A stretch of 53,904 nucleotides of DNA from positions 1 to 53,904 of the IMG/VR virus record IMGVR_UViG_3300032214_001883. One strand, given 5' to 3'. The notes under the pieces are model-generated. The model saw only the letters and a list, made by a program, of their open reading frames with translations, searched no databases and had not been told where the DNA came from. Within the stretch, counting starts at the first letter, position 1. Each line of letters opens with the position of its first letter. The DNA comes from a virus. The position numbers and the translations under genes were made by a program. Below are positions 18,627-39,153 of this stretch, piece after piece.

Positions 18627-19232
18627 ATGGCAGCTTATCCAAAAACTGGTTCAACTCTAGACTCTACAACCAGGTCTTCATTATCAACCCAGATTATAAT
18701 TATGGTTAATAATGAGCCTGTTGGTGCAATTCAGAGTTTTGCAGAGACGCAAAACAGACCAATAAAAGAAATACCGGAAATTGGAACCGACGGTATAGTT
18801 GAGTTAGTACCTCAGGGTGCTGCCAAGACAAGCCTAAGAATAAACAGAATGTATTTTGACGGCCTATCCCTTCCAGAATCTTTTTCTCGTGGCTTTAGAA
18901 ATCTTCAATCTCAAAGAATTCCTTTTGATATAGTTGTTATCGATCAAACCACTGGGACTGGAAATGATGCTATAATAACCACATATCATAACTGCTGGTT
19001 CGAAAGCTTGAGCACAAACTATCAGACAAATGATTATACAATCGCTCAAGATGCAGGCGTAAAGTGCGAATTTGTCTCAACAATAAGAGGCGGAGAAGCA
19101 ATTGCCCTAAGCCAAGGAACCGGCGGTTCTAGACAGGTTCCCGTTCAGAAGGATTCTGTCGAATTGGCTGCAGATAGCGGTAAAACAAGAGGCTCTCTTG
19201 ATTTCCCAGGATTAATTTCCGCAGCATACTAA
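18627..19232 (+). CDS. Tail tube protein
   Basis: 201 residues with CGGAG ribosome site. It follows the sheath and ends at a strong terminator, the usual sheath-tube pairing. Features fit the T4 gp19-like/Hcp-like tube fold: 'IIIMVNNEPVGAIQSFAETQ', 'RPIKEIPEIGTDGIVELVPQ', 'RIPFDIVVIDQTTG...HNCWFESLSTNY' and a late strand pair 'AQDAGVKCEFVSTIRGGEAI'. It polymerises into the inner tube through which DNA passes. The C-terminal ~50 residues (SRQVPVQKDSVELAADSGKT...) are low-complexity and may be exposed. Family assignment is from pattern and position. Confidence 0.85.
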   Translation: MAAYPKTGSTLDSTTRSSLSTQIIIMVNNEPVGAIQSFAETQNRPIKEIPEIGTDGIVELVPQGAAKTSLRINRMYFDGLSLPESFSRGFRNLQSQRIPFDIVVIDQTTGTGNDAIITTYHNCWFESLSTNYQTNDYTIAQDAGVKCEFVSTIRGGEAIALSQGTGGSRQVPVQKDSVELAADSGKTRGSLDFPGLISAAY

Positions 19233-19247
19233 AAAAATTATTTTTTT

Positions 19248-19290
19248 AAAGCCGCTCTTCAAAATTATGAAGGGTGGCTTTATTTTTTTT
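19248..19290 (+). terminator. Intrinsic terminator after the sheath-tube unit
   Basis: AAAGCCGCTCTTC (19248-19260) pairs with GAAGGGTGGCTTT (19269-19281), a 13-bp stem with two G-U pairs and an 8-nt loop, followed by TTTATTTTTTTT. The A- and T-rich sequence upstream (19232-19250) could also support termination from the other side. It insulates the abundant sheath/tube message from the chaperone and tape measure genes. Confidence 0.85.
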
Positions 19291-19324
19291 ATTCATGTAG
19301 TATAAATTACGTTGAGGTATATTC
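19291..19324 (+). promoter_or_regulatory. Possible promoter for the chaperone-tape measure unit
   Basis: Immediately after the terminator, TATAAATT at 19301-19308 resembles a T4-type late element (TATAAATA), 24 nt before ATG 19325. ATTCATG (19291-19297) is complementary to CATGAAT (19324-19330) over the start codon, with the TATAAATT between the arms. GAGG at 19313-19316 is the ribosome site. A new promoter is expected here because transcription should stop just upstream. Confidence 0.35.
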
Positions 19325-19852
19325 ATGAATCAGGTAAAGCCACCTTCAGTTCCAGTTAGAACCGCAAGTGATGTAATGGGTGCGAGAGCAAAGCTTGGTG
19401 ATAAATTTTCTCCGGAGGCCTTAAAGAAACAAGACGAAGAAATTTCCAAGGAATCATCTGCAAGTTACCAGCAAATGACACCACAGCAGAATGATTTAGA
19501 AAAGTTGATATTTCTTGGCAGGGTGGATAAAACGGTTTCTATTGCAGGCTTTGCATTCAAGCTATCAACATTAACAACTAGCCAGCAAAAATTTATGATA
19601 ACTGAGATCTCAAGAGTAAAGGAGGAAGAAAGAATTTTTTATCTTAAAAATTCAACCATAGCGCTTTCTCTTTGTGATATCAATGGCGTTGATTTTGATG
19701 CGTTTATAAATAACGAAGCGAGAGATTTTTCTAAGAGACTTGAATTCATAAATAACCTTCAGTCAAATCTTGTTGATTCTCTTTTTAAGTCTTATACGGC
19801 AATGTTTCAAGAGTCAATTGATCTCTTAAACATGGAGGAAGTAAAAAAATAA
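19325..19852 (+). CDS. Tail assembly chaperone, short (G-like) form
   Basis: 175 residues. The N-terminus is Pro/Ser/Gln-rich and probably disordered; residues about 55-175 are alpha/beta then helical ('EKLIFLGRVDKTVSIAGFAF', 'LTTSQQKFMITEISRVKEEE', 'LNNLQSNLVDSLFKSYTAMF'-like end at 140-165). It lies between the tube and tape measure genes, the invariant place of lambda G/GT-type chaperones, and its last codons GTA AAA AAA TAA contain a canonical slippery heptamer. It should bind the tape measure and recruit tube subunits, and is normally absent from mature virions. By analogy most ribosomes stop here and a minority shift into the extension. Confidence 0.8.
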   Translation: MNQVKPPSVPVRTASDVMGARAKLGDKFSPEALKKQDEEISKESSASYQQMTPQQNDLEKLIFLGRVDKTVSIAGFAFKLSTLTTSQQKFMITEISRVKEEERIFYLKNSTIALSLCDINGVDFDAFINNEARDFSKRLEFINNLQSNLVDSLFKSYTAMFQESIDLLNMEEVKK

Positions 19853-19910
19853 TAGAGCTCCCGCACCATAGAATACGCTGGGAGCTCTGCAAGATATGGA
19901 AATGTAGCGT
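19843..19910 (+). promoter_or_regulatory. Programmed -1 frameshift signal
   Basis: The slippery heptamer A AAA AAA is at 19843-19849 in the correct zero-frame phase and directly precedes the TAA stop. After a 4-nt spacer, AGAGCTCCC (19854-19862) pairs perfectly with GGGAGCTCT (19880-19888). The loop end ACGCT (19875-19879) is complementary to AGCGT (19906-19910), allowing an H-type pseudoknot with stem 2 abutting stem 1. Slip site plus strong stem is the classic layout; the pseudoknot is a prediction. Confidence 0.8.
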
Positions 19911-20262
19911 TGATGATCCCATTTTTAATGAAATATCTTCAACCCAATGGGCTTGGCTTTGCGCAAATGTCGCAAAAGACAAGAGAGACGATTTTGAAGA
20001 AAAAATAACAATAGCTGATTATTTAGCTTCCTTCTGGAATCCAGAGTCTGTCAAGAAAATACAAGAAATTAGAAAGCAAAGAGAGCTAGACTCAGAAGTT
20101 TCGGATAAAGAATTCATAGAGATGATGTCACAGCAAGATTATAAGAGCAATCCGCTTGTTGATGCAATAAAGAAAATAAAAGAATCATCCTCCAATTCAG
20201 AACAAACTTCCTCCGCATTACACTCTATTAATTTAAATAAGTTAATCAAGGAAGGAATTTAA
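19849..20262 (+). CDS. Frameshift extension (T-like part) of the tail assembly chaperone
   Basis: An open -1 frame of 137 codons with no start near its beginning (first ATGs at 20122/20125), running from the slip site to a TAA that shares a base with the tape measure ATG. It starts IIELPHHRIRWELCKIWKCS, continues '...STQWAWLCANVAKDKRDDFE' and 'ITIADYLASFWNPES', and ends in a helical, Ser-rich tail (NLNKLIKEGI). Joined to the upstream frame it would give a 312-residue fusion. The 'W.W..A' and '..DY....W' patterns are like T domains of G-T chaperones that bind the tape measure. A standard ORF search misses this gene because it has no start codon. Confidence 0.8.
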   Translation: MIELPHHRIRWELCKIWKCSVDDPIFNEISSTQWAWLCANVAKDKRDDFEEKITIADYLASFWNPESVKKIQEIRKQRELDSEVSDKEFIEMMSQQDYKSNPLVDAIKKIKESSSNSEQTSSALHSINLNKLIKEGI

Positions 20263-22070
20263 TGCCGTCAGTTGCAAAAGAAGTTCAAGAGAATTTCTTA
20301 AATATTATAAAAAGTATTGGTAATTTTGATTCGGCAATGACAAAGATGCTTGTTGATTCTGAGAAATCATTCAGCAACATGAAAACAATGCTTACATCCG
20401 TAGATGGTGCACTATCCGGTGTTATAAACTTGAGTAAGATATTAGGAGACCAGATACCATTTAGTTCCACATTCATACAGTCAGCAAATGAAGTTAAAGA
20501 CTTGTTTGTTGGAATAGGTCAAACGATTATTACTGTTGCTGAAGAGGTAGATAAGAGGGGCGAATCTTATAGGGGGCTTATAAAGCAAAATTATGAATAT
20601 GCTTCAAGCTTTGGATATGGCATAGAAAAGGCGGTAGAGCTTACAGATAGAATTAGTGATATTTCAAAGGTAAACAGCCAACTTGCAGATTCCGGACTGT
20701 TTATTAGCACGGAGGATACACAGAGTGCTTTTCGTGAGTTATCCAAAAATCTGAAAACATCATCAAATGAATTTTTGGAATATTCTTATTCTATGGATGG
20801 AGTTTCGTTAAAAGCAGAACAAATGACTGCAGTACTTCAAGAAGTATCTGGAATTGATCAATGGAATTATTACAGCGCCTTGGGTAATGCTGTTGCAAAG
20901 AGCGGAATGTCCTTCGAAGAAGCAATCATGTCAGTTGCTGATTATAAAGAAATATCAAAAGAAACGGGTATTGGTGTAAATGAGGTTTCTTCTGCTTTAA
21001 GTGGTGCTGTAAATCAATTTGCAAAACTAGGTCTTACTGTTGATTTTGCAAAACCGGCACTAGTAGGTTTTGCAAGCGTACTAAAAGAAGCTGGATTAGG
21101 AATAGAAAACGCTTCGTCATTAACCCAAACGTTATCAACAAGCCTTATGGACGCCGCAAGCAGTTATGGAAAGGCTTACGTTCTGTTTCAGCAAGGAGGG
21201 CTCGATTTTGGCGGCGGTGGCGGTGTTCTTGGGGCGTCAATAGGTTTTAGGGCCTCCATGATGAACCAAACCCCAGAGCAGCAGGAAGCGACTGGAATGG
21301 ACCTAATGAAGGCCATGAAGGATACGATCTCAAATTTTACGGGAGGCTCGATTATAACACTTCAGGAGGCAGCAAAAAATCCGGCACTGCAGCAACAATA
21401 TTATGCTCAGGAGCAAATGCTATCTGGAATGTTTGGTATTTCTGGTCAAGCAGATCAGCAACAAACTCTGAGCTTATTACAGTCATTGGATGAAGCCACA
21501 AAGTCAGGAGATCGAGATCGTGCGGCACAATTGGCAGATCAGCTAAATGAAGGAAAAGAGCTTAGAGAAAAAACAAGCTCGCTTCAGGAGAAGCTCGGAG
21601 CGATAGCTGCAGGTAGTTTCTCTGAGCATGTCAAACAAAGCTATTTACAGCAGCAAACGGTCGAATCTCTATTGAGACAAGAGGGTGGGGTCCAATATGT
21701 CGGAGGAGAAGAGGGTGACAAGAGAAGTATGTTTGATGTATACAAAGAAGGTATGGAGAAACTATCTGGTGTAGTAAGTGAGGCAAGAAATATTGCAACG
21801 GAAGCAATTGGTGGAAAATTCAAAGAGATAGATACAAGCAATATATTTGATATATTAAAATCTACTGATTTTTCACCAGAGGAGGAGACTGGTACGCCGA
21901 CAGGAACCAGAACAACAACACAGGGCGGCTCTGTTTATAACCTAAACTTATATGGAAGTGCGGTTCCAGAAGGAAAGGCGGTTGTTATATTACCAGGTCA
22001 ACAACCCATGTTGACTGATATAAATGCAGGACTAACGAATGCGGCAAGAGCAGGAAAACCCATTAAATAA
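20262..22070 (+). CDS. Tail tape measure protein
   Basis: 602 residues; TAATG junction with the frameshift frame and an AAGGA ribosome site. Long helical stretches alternate with small-residue hydrophobic regions: 'LSGVINLSKILGDQIPFSST' near 50 and 'ISKETGIGVNEVSSALSGAV' with 'LSTSLMDAASSYGKAYVLF' near 230-310. A Gly-rich turn (FGGGGGVLGASIGF, about 315-328) and a Gln-rich helical region (360-480) follow. The C-terminus ends in a short beta region 'SVYNLNLYGSAVPEGKAVVI'. Position after the chaperone pair is diagnostic. At about 1.5 A per residue the tail would be near 90 nm, similar to T4, whose gp29 has 590 residues. No lysozyme or peptidase domain is seen. Confidence 0.8.
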   Translation: MPSVAKEVQENFLNIIKSIGNFDSAMTKMLVDSEKSFSNMKTMLTSVDGALSGVINLSKILGDQIPFSSTFIQSANEVKDLFVGIGQTIITVAEEVDKRGESYRGLIKQNYEYASSFGYGIEKAVELTDRISDISKVNSQLADSGLFISTEDTQSAFRELSKNLKTSSNEFLEYSYSMDGVSLKAEQMTAVLQEVSGIDQWNYYSALGNAVAKSGMSFEEAIMSVADYKEISKETGIGVNEVSSALSGAVNQFAKLGLTVDFAKPALVGFASVLKEAGLGIENASSLTQTLSTSLMDAASSYGKAYVLFQQGGLDFGGGGGVLGASIGFRASMMNQTPEQQEATGMDLMKAMKDTISNFTGGSIITLQEAAKNPALQQQYYAQEQMLSGMFGISGQADQQQTLSLLQSLDEATKSGDRDRAAQLADQLNEGKELREKTSSLQEKLGAIAAGSFSEHVKQSYLQQQTVESLLRQEGGVQYVGGEEGDKRSMFDVYKEGMEKLSGVVSEARNIATEAIGGKFKEIDTSNIFDILKSTDFSPEEETGTPTGTRTTTQGGSVYNLNLYGSAVPEGKAVVILPGQQPMLTDINAGLTNAARAGKPIK

Positions 22071-22076
22071 CGTTGG

Positions 22077-22129
22077 TCCCATAAAATATATTTAAAAACA
22101 TATTAATAAAAAAGACATATTTTATGGGA
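22077..22129 (+). promoter_or_regulatory. 13-bp inverted repeat hiding a start codon, with TATTAATA in the loop
   Basis: TCCCATAAAATAT (22077-22089) is perfectly complementary to ATATTTTATGGGA (22117-22129), which contains the ATG at 22124. The 27-nt loop holds TATTAATA at 22101-22108. RNA reading through from the tape measure gene would bury the start codon; RNA begun about six bases after the octamer would lack the left arm. Together this looks like a promoter-in-hairpin switch. There is no U-tract, so it is not a terminator. Confidence 0.55.
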
Positions 22130-23032
22130 AAAATAAAAAGAGAAACAATAAAATTTTTACTACCTGTAAATTATTCTACAGTTACATCCAATAATTCTGG
22201 TGGCAGACTGGTAATTCCTCTTTACATAAATCCACAAGAGGTCACGAGAACTGACAGCAAGGTAGTTCAGGAATCTCAAACTTTAGGCGGATTCATAGTT
22301 CAATATTGGGGAGAAAAATTAAGCAATTTTACAATCAGAGGAATTACTGGCTCAGGTGGCATTGAAGTTATAAATATACTAAGAAGTGTTTATAGAAATG
22401 AGCAGATTCAATTTAAAAAAATTCTGTTAGAAAGGCAGAGACAACTTGCCGAAGAAAGTGGAGCCATACTCAGCGATCTTGCCTCTCAAGCAAATTTTAA
22501 CGAAGGGCTTGTTGCCGCCGGCGACATACTTTTTGATGGTGTAGTTTCTGATGTAATAAATTCTGTTAGTGAAACGATAGAATTCTTAAAAGATCCAACA
22601 TCAATCACTACTAGCGATTCTTCCCAGCTAAGAAACCAAACTCCAACTCTTGCCTCGTTTGCAGTATCCGTAGACATGTCTTTTCAAGGCGAAATACATA
22701 GAGGTTTTTTTACTGATTTTTCTGTCACAGAATCCGCTCAAGAGCCAGGACACTTTAGCTATAATTTTTCGTTTAAGGCCCTTAGAAGTATTGGGGAAAG
22801 AAACAATTTTATGCCATGGCATAAATCACCGACAAATGAGTCCGGACAGCCAGTTCAATCAGACTCTATATACGCTCCATATGGTTCATCGCTTTCTTTC
22901 CCATATACAACACCAGTGAATGATTCAAATATACTTAAAACATCAACAACTATAGTGGAAGGGCAGTCCGGACAAAAGGATTCAAGCCAAAGATCATTAT
23001 CAAGATTTGGCGACCTTTCATCAAAAAAATAA
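22124..23032 (+). CDS. Baseplate/tail tip protein, XkdP- or gp53-like
   Basis: 302 residues. It begins with 'IKFLLPVNYSTV', then 'LVIPLYINPQEVTRTDSKVV', 'GGFIVQYWGEKLSNFTIRGI' and 'TGSGGIEVINILRSVYRNEQ', the pattern of the N-terminal domain of PBSX XkdP-type baseplate proteins (a beta sandwich with 'NP..v' and 'G..SG'). A helical insertion (about 105-190) follows, and the second beta half ends 'QEPGHFSYNFSFKALRSIGE'. The tail is Ser/Asn-rich. No LysM motif is visible. It should link tube/tape measure initiation to the hub encoded next. The ribosome site is weak (AAAGA) and the start lies in the inverted repeat above. Confidence 0.65.
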   Translation: MGKIKRETIKFLLPVNYSTVTSNNSGGRLVIPLYINPQEVTRTDSKVVQESQTLGGFIVQYWGEKLSNFTIRGITGSGGIEVINILRSVYRNEQIQFKKILLERQRQLAEESGAILSDLASQANFNEGLVAAGDILFDGVVSDVINSVSETIEFLKDPTSITTSDSSQLRNQTPTLASFAVSVDMSFQGEIHRGFFTDFSVTESAQEPGHFSYNFSFKALRSIGERNNFMPWHKSPTNESGQPVQSDSIYAPYGSSLSFPYTTPVNDSNILKTSTTIVEGQSGQKDSSQRSLSRFGDLSSKK

Positions 23033-38688: not shown

Positions 38689-38716
38689 TATTAATATTCC
38701 TAATTCAATTAGGAAT
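38689..38716 (+). promoter_or_regulatory. TATTAATA with ribosome-site hairpin upstream of the gp25-like gene
   Basis: TATTAATA at 38689-38696 is exactly 33 nt before ATG 38722. Overlapping its last base, ATTCCTAAT (38696-38704) pairs perfectly with ATTAGGAAT (38708-38716), a 9-bp stem with a 3-nt loop that hides the AGGA ribosome site (38711-38714). RNA begun about six bases after the octamer would keep only the last one or two bases of the left arm. Read-through RNA would keep the site closed. Confidence 0.5.
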
Positions 38717-38721
38717 AAAAA

Positions 38722-39153
38722 ATGTCATTTGATTTGAAAATAAAGTCCGGAGATATTTCCTTAGAATCTAGCGGAGAAATATCTGTTGTTTCTGGAAATC
38801 AAAAGATTAGGCAGGATGTCGTTAAGATTATCCTAACTAAGATCGGAGAAAACCGATTTCATCCGCAATATGGCTCAAATACTGGCCAGCTTCAAATTGG
38901 AACGATACTAGACCAAGCCCTGGTCGAAGAAGACTTGAGACAATCAGCTCAATCCGCAATTAGGTATCTAATGCAATTGCAAAGAGAGCAGTCAAGAAAG
39001 CAGCTTTTATCTTCATCTGAAATTATTCTTGATATAAAAAATCTGCAAATAGAGCGTGATGAAGCGGACCCAAGACTTTATAACATCTTTATTTCTGTTT
39101 TAACTCAAAAACTAGAATCTATTGATGAAGTAATTACTATTAGAATAGTATAG
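38722..39153 (+). CDS. Baseplate wedge protein, gp25-like (GPW/gp25 family)
   Basis: 143 residues, near the usual family length (about 100-145). The core 'NQKIRQDVVKIILTKIGENRFHPQYG' region (residues about 27-55) matches the GPW/gp25 signature, in which a helix is followed by a G-E-x-x-x-x-P-x-x-G loop. A helix pair and a two-strand end follow ('DPRLYNIFISVLTQKLESID', 'EVITIRIV'). It sits at the tube-baseplate junction with a sheath-like handshake fold and helps start sheath assembly. The next gene, 7 nt downstream, is the gpJ-like partner, the conserved gp25-gpJ order of contractile systems. Confidence 0.85.
   Translation: MSFDLKIKSGDISLESSGEISVVSGNQKIRQDVVKIILTKIGENRFHPQYGSNTGQLQIGTILDQALVEEDLRQSAQSAIRYLMQLQREQSRKQLLSSSEIILDIKNLQIERDEADPRLYNIFISVLTQKLESIDEVITIRIV

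Follow-up and report, generated by a model that had tools for sequence, protein, structure and literature searches.

Is the start codon of a putative tail tube initiator gene held in a hairpin on RNA read through from the gene upstream, and set free on RNA begun at the gene's own promoter? The question was raised by an inverted repeat at positions 22077-22129 of the window (the whole stretch analysed, 53,904 nt; IMG/VR record IMGVR_UViG_3300032214_001883), for which an earlier note had proposed such a lock, with a promoter-like octamer between the two arms and with the logic known for T4 genes such as e and soc. The coordinates of the features are listed in Table 1.

Table 1. Features at the start of the putative tail tube initiator gene (positions in the window)
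Feature	Position	Strand	Basis and remarks
Stop codon of the upstream ORF	22068-22070	+	Ends the 602-aa ORF at 20262-22070; 7 nt before the left arm; from the sequence and the ORF list
Hairpin left arm, TCCCATAAAATAT	22077-22089	+	Inverted repeat of 13 bp, 100%; part of the RNA only when transcription starts ahead of the promoter
Promoter-like octamer, TATTAATA	22101-22108	+	TRYTAATA motif of the group; conserved position, enriched upstream of genes, strand-biased in relatives
Predicted transcription start	22114	+	Placed as in T4 late promoters, 6 nt past the octamer; the ~10-nt leader would have no Shine-Dalgarno
Hairpin right arm, ATATTTTATGGGA	22117-22129	+	Includes the start codon; probably a derived state of this lineage
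302-aa ORF, putative tail tube initiator (XkdP-like or CIS tube-initiator-like)	22124-23032	+	PF23980 in homologues; Foldseek

The layout was found as the earlier note had described it: all 13 positions of the two arms are complementary (100%), a loop of 27 nt separates the arms, the ATG at 22124 lies inside the right arm, and the octamer lies in the loop, 23 nt before the ATG. No perfect spaced inverted repeat in the window is longer than this arm pair. The predicted fold of RNA from 22071 to 22135 has a free energy of -14.4 kcal/mol (z -3.8), and the left and right arms pair with each other in the minimum-energy fold. In block-shuffled windows, perfect stems of at least 13 bp were expected anywhere at 0.17 per window. 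When only the DNA upstream of the 26 starts in the window was shuffled, a stem of this type over a start codon was expected at 0.0025 per window, and at 0.0002 for the site at 22124. A chance origin of the hairpin is thus unlikely under this simple null, although the hairpin was picked out by a reader who could have remarked on any other feature. A search of Rfam over positions 19000-23000 gave no match above chance.

The cost of opening the start region was predicted for RNAs with different 5' ends, and the null distributions were obtained with 200-500 shuffles of the upstream sequence. The predicted cost was 11.61 kcal/mol on read-through RNA vs 2.65 kcal/mol on RNA begun at 22114, about 6 nt past the octamer and devoid of the left arm as the earlier note had supposed; the mean for upstream-shuffled sequences was 3.87 kcal/mol (p 0.002, 500 shuffles). 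In an in silico 5' deletion series, RNAs beginning at 22081 or later, a point well before the octamer, no longer showed the lock. Covering the RNA to 22080 lowered the cost from 11.6 to 3.7 kcal/mol, and covering it to 22078 lowered the cost only to 9.4 kcal/mol. On the longer RNA, the start codon is predicted to be buried in a stable helix, as in locks of the T4 type.

The octamer was also examined in 130 upstream regions, which were taken from the window and three related contigs. Over the whole window, TATTAATA is not in excess (5 copies vs 3.84 expected). Upstream of genes, it occurs in 19 of the 130 regions vs 3.3 expected (shuffle maximum, 6) and is among the most enriched upstream 8-mers of the phage group, in agreement with the promoter-like character ascribed to it; for the same regions, the numbers were 25 vs 3.6 expected for TAYTAATA, 13 vs 0.5 expected for CTAYTAATA, and 7 vs 0.23 expected for TGCTAATA. 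Enrichment was not found for the T4 late box, TATAAATA (1 copy vs 2.7 expected in the 130 regions), and identification of the octamer with the T4 late box was rejected, the box being TATTAATA. CTAYTAATA follows the direction of the genes in three nearer relatives (forward/reverse, 0/6, 10/0, and 11/2), and an octamer (TATTAATA, TATCAATA, or TGCTAATA) is fixed 22-25 nt before the gene in 10 of the 65 orthologues. Given the enrichment and the conserved position, TATTAATA is very probably a promoter. Ahead of the tail sheath gene, TACTAATA or TATTAATA was found at 49-55 nt (in the window and the relatives shown), which suggests late expression. A search of the literature gave no phage paper with TATTAATA as a late promoter. 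Note that another copy of TATTAATA lies inside AGATATTAATAATATCT (window, 2946-2978), ahead of the gene at 2979; there, AATATCT could pair with AGATATT beside the start codon to form a 9-bp start-covering stem.

Matches to sigma-70 region 2 were present in seven of eight related contigs (six above the cut-off), and none of the eight encodes a recognisable RNA polymerase beta subunit. The simplest reading is that TRYTAATA is probably read by the host RNA polymerase with a phage-encoded sigma factor. The contig of the nearest relative (L046, 87.6 kb) encodes, at 1015-1791 on the minus strand, a 258-aa sigma factor with sigma-family matches in Pfam and PHROGs, in which region 2 is followed by a Cys-rich stretch and a region-4-like end; this protein is a candidate reader of the TRYTAATA promoters.

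In T4 late promoters, transcription starts 6 nt past the octamer box. When the start was placed in the same way, the gene at 22124 had a predicted leader of ~10 nt. Among 31 promoter-bearing genes, some of which are homologous pairs, nine of the ten with a predicted leader of 15 nt or less have no Shine-Dalgarno sequence vs 20 of the 21 with a longer leader that have one (p 5e-6). Similarly, all ten orthologues with the octamer at -22 to -25 are without a Shine-Dalgarno sequence, and 38 of the 54 octamer-less orthologues have one (Fisher p 0.0002, a guide only, because the sequences are related). Since the ten octamer-bearing orthologues are without a Shine-Dalgarno sequence, the mRNA of the 302-aa gene probably begins just before the gene, with a leader of ~10 nt.

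As for the product, the name XkdP-like given in the earlier note is reasonable if taken to mean a tail tube initiator. The Pfam family PF23980 (tail tube initiator) was matched by 27 of 56 homologues (best E 3.6e-6) and not by the window protein itself; the AlphaFold2 model of the 302-aa protein built from 56 sequences had a pLDDT of 68 (53 for a 10-sequence model), and the Foldseek matches were baseplate chains of phi812 (chain M, E 7.9e-6), phiCD508 (3.5e-4), and contractile injection systems. The gene comes behind those for the tail tube and the putative tape measure. Tube initiators are low-copy components of such tails. No relative of the 302-aa protein was found in annotated phages, and a search of genome contigs for the host, performed with an alignment of the tube protein, found no relative. 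Two further structures were observed in the same tail gene region. At 19841-19895, GTA AAA AAA TAA is followed by a strong hairpin, AGAGCTCCC...GGGAGCTCT (-19 kcal/mol, z -5.7), which is kept in the relatives L001 and L002 with loop changes, and the -1 frame is open to about 20262; this is likely a programmed -1 frameshift in a tail assembly chaperone. An intrinsic terminator, whose sequence L001 and L002 share, follows the tail tube gene at 19247-19344. The 3' arm of this terminator, GGTGGCTTTA, is complementary as well to TAAAGCCACC, which lies immediately within the following gene at 19335-19344. The start region of that gene could therefore be paired on read-through RNA; the opening costs were non-significant (p 0.12-0.56).

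The earlier note had named homologous phages with the same gene order and without complementary arms as evidence against the lock, and such phages exist. In L001 and L002 (91% protein identity, same gene order and octamer), CATATTAATAAA is intact and the arms are not complementary; an exact search with a degenerate DNA pattern for more close orthologues found only L001 and L002 again. A start-covering perfect stem of more than 8 bp was found in none of the other orthologues (65 distinct orthologues). L001 and L002 retain an ATG two codons upstream (ATGTTCATGGGA), and the outgroups begin at ATGTTC or ATGTTT. In the window the upstream ATG is gone and the sequence reads ATATTTTATGGGA, where L001 and L002 read ATATGTTCATGGGA. 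From these alignments, the right arm was probably derived in this lineage by the change that removed the upstream ATG. The p values for sequestration of the start in octamer-bearing orthologues were 0.11 (L001), 0.42 (L002), 0.88 (L008), 0.98 (L011), and 0.02 (L010), and over the 31 promoter-bearing genes the starts were sequestered no more than by chance (mean p 0.44; four genes with p<0.1). A general locking of starts by promoter-proximal hairpins across the group was rejected on this mean. By comparison of the sequences, the structure at 22077-22129 is not kept in the related phages.

The reading that we consider foremost is that the gene of this uncultivated giant-type phage has its own TRYTAATA promoter and a start-codon lock on read-through RNA; it is put forward tentatively, as falling a little short of probable. 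TATTAATA would be the gene's own promoter, read by the host RNA polymerase with a phage sigma factor. RNA from ~22114 would have a leader of ~10 nt without a Shine-Dalgarno sequence, and its AUG would be open because RNA begun ~6 nt past the octamer is without the left arm. Read-through is possible because there is no terminator between the genes (no intrinsic terminator, that is, a G+C-rich stem followed by a U run, in 500 nt around the site on both strands). Read-through RNA from the upstream tail genes would keep the left arm, so that the AUG would be held in the 13-bp stem and initiation reduced, and RNA from the gene's own promoter would be the main source of the tube initiator. Since the upstream stop is 7 nt from the left arm and cover to 22080 brings the predicted cost to 3.7 kcal/mol, the lock would be effective chiefly while the upstream gene on the read-through RNA is momentarily untranslated, and full silence on read-through RNA is unlikely. 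Selection, if it maintains the hairpin, would do so in this lineage only.

The alternative that the promoter is real and the hairpin is a lineage-specific accident without function is possible, and we view it with somewhat more doubt. By this route, loss of the ancestral ATGTTC start gave ATATTTTATGGGA in an A+T-rich leader, which happened to match the pre-existing TAAAATAT plus a TCCCA tract. The change in the right arm is indeed visible against both L001/L002 and the outgroups, and TAAAATAT is present in hairpin-less relatives; the absence of comparable stems from the other orthologues and of a group-wide sequestering tendency points the same way. What tells against an accident is the small number of such stems expected over a start, a number to be read with the reservation that free scanning makes the effective trials more than the 26 starts, and the fact that, in each arm, the differences from the relatives increase the complementarity. 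It is very improbable that the inverted repeat acts as DNA, as an operator of two half-sites. Its arms do flank the octamer, and near matches to ATATTTTATGGGA (up to two mismatches) number 9 in the window vs 4.0 in shuffles, a slight excess, but the other near matches are intragenic, the arms do not recur at a second promoter, and they are not conserved in relatives.

Because a terminating ribosome that reaches to 22080 would open the stem, coupling is a real rival: the hairpin would be closed on untranslated read-through RNA and opened by the ribosome finishing the upstream 602-aa gene, so that synthesis of the initiator follows that of the upstream tail protein. The short distance from the stop to the left arm, the G-C pairs at the outer end of the arm, and the large drop in opening cost between occlusion to 22078 and to 22080 fit this possibility, but the upstream gene ends differently in L001 and L002, where there is no stem, the start is 54 nt from the stop and thus too far for simple re-initiation, and the gene has its own promoter; we consider it quite unlikely. 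A joint reading is also conceivable, in which a large unstudied phage group has two classes of TRYTAATA promoters (one with Shine-Dalgarno leaders and one with leaders of ~3-15 nt without any) and the short-leader gene studied here gained a start-codon lock that controls how much of the low-copy tail initiator is made and that can be opened by the gene's own promoter or by the ribosome terminating on the upstream gene. As a whole, this reading appears unlikely.

Returning to the lock on read-through RNA, the structure in the window is real, the promoter very probably so, and an on/off switch can be considered plausible in this phage alone. Should the lock function, the concealment of a start on read-through RNA, as practised by T4, has arisen separately with a different promoter box, and the AUG is hidden on a message without a Shine-Dalgarno sequence. 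Orthologues with and without the hairpin share one promoter, and their comparison is a clean natural experiment. Of wider use is the promoter motif, which applies to a large group of uncultivated contractile-tailed phages and makes it possible to map their transcription units.

In T4, the Shine-Dalgarno sequence and/or the AUG of e, soc, 49, and I-TevI lie in a helix on the long RNA, and late promoters cut off the 5' part (PMC3014915, PMC2988022). The analogy drawn in the earlier note to e and soc is accurate with respect to this description (PMC3014915), and its layout is repeated here on paper: the promoter-like octamer is placed so that RNA begun at the predicted start would be without the 5' arm, and the long RNA is predicted to hide the start and the short one is not. 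The reason that operates in T4, silence of a late gene on early read-through RNA, is weak here because the genes just upstream also look like late tail genes, so that there would be little early read-through to silence. There are further differences. The window gene is without a Shine-Dalgarno sequence, so its stem hides the AUG itself, and its predicted leader is ~10 nt; the T4 late promoter has TATAAATA and the gp55 sigma factor, whereas the box in the window is TRYTAATA and the phage sigma factor of the relatives is not equated with gp55; and similar leader structures are reported for gene e in several T4 relatives, whereas the window hairpin was not found in relatives. With conservation lacking and repression only predicted, a T4 e/soc-like lock is plausible by analogy as a lineage-specific device. 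The likeness to the XkdP and CIS tube initiator genes of contractile tails lies in the predicted fold and in the place behind the genes for the tail tube and the putative tape measure, and is limited to the protein.

Two other loci of the group have a hairpin together with the promoter. In the window, an 11-bp hairpin (38689-38717) covers the Shine-Dalgarno sequence of the sheath-initiator gene at 38722 (opening cost p 0.03), and its left arm and the octamer overlap; this hairpin is kept in L026 with one G-C to G-U change (p 0.08) and is absent from L027 and L028. In the related contig G008, the locus at L058:12780-14171 (G008:C1:112780-114171) contains a 445-aa putative homing endonuclease gene without a Pfam hit (L058:12834). 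A ribonucleotide reductase gene is split in two around it, with intein-like sequence where the pieces end and begin, the downstream piece carrying an intein-like stretch. The promoter of the endonuclease gene, GGCTCCTACTAATA (TACTAATA box), overlaps an arm that pairs with GTAGGAGCC over the Shine-Dalgarno sequence (-22.5 kcal/mol, z -4.8; opening cost 12.5 vs 5.2 for shuffled sequences, p 0.004), and RNA from its own TACTAATA promoter would be without the hairpin. A close counterpart is mobE of Aeh1, an endonuclease gene inside a ribonucleotide reductase gene with a hairpin at the ribosome-binding site and a late promoter (PMC2988022), and I-TevI is also parallel; the G008 gene differs in lying between the halves of an apparent split intein and in its TACTAATA box. 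This locus is a stronger example than that in the window; with it, the layout is seen at another place in the group, in a setting that is biologically more sensible.
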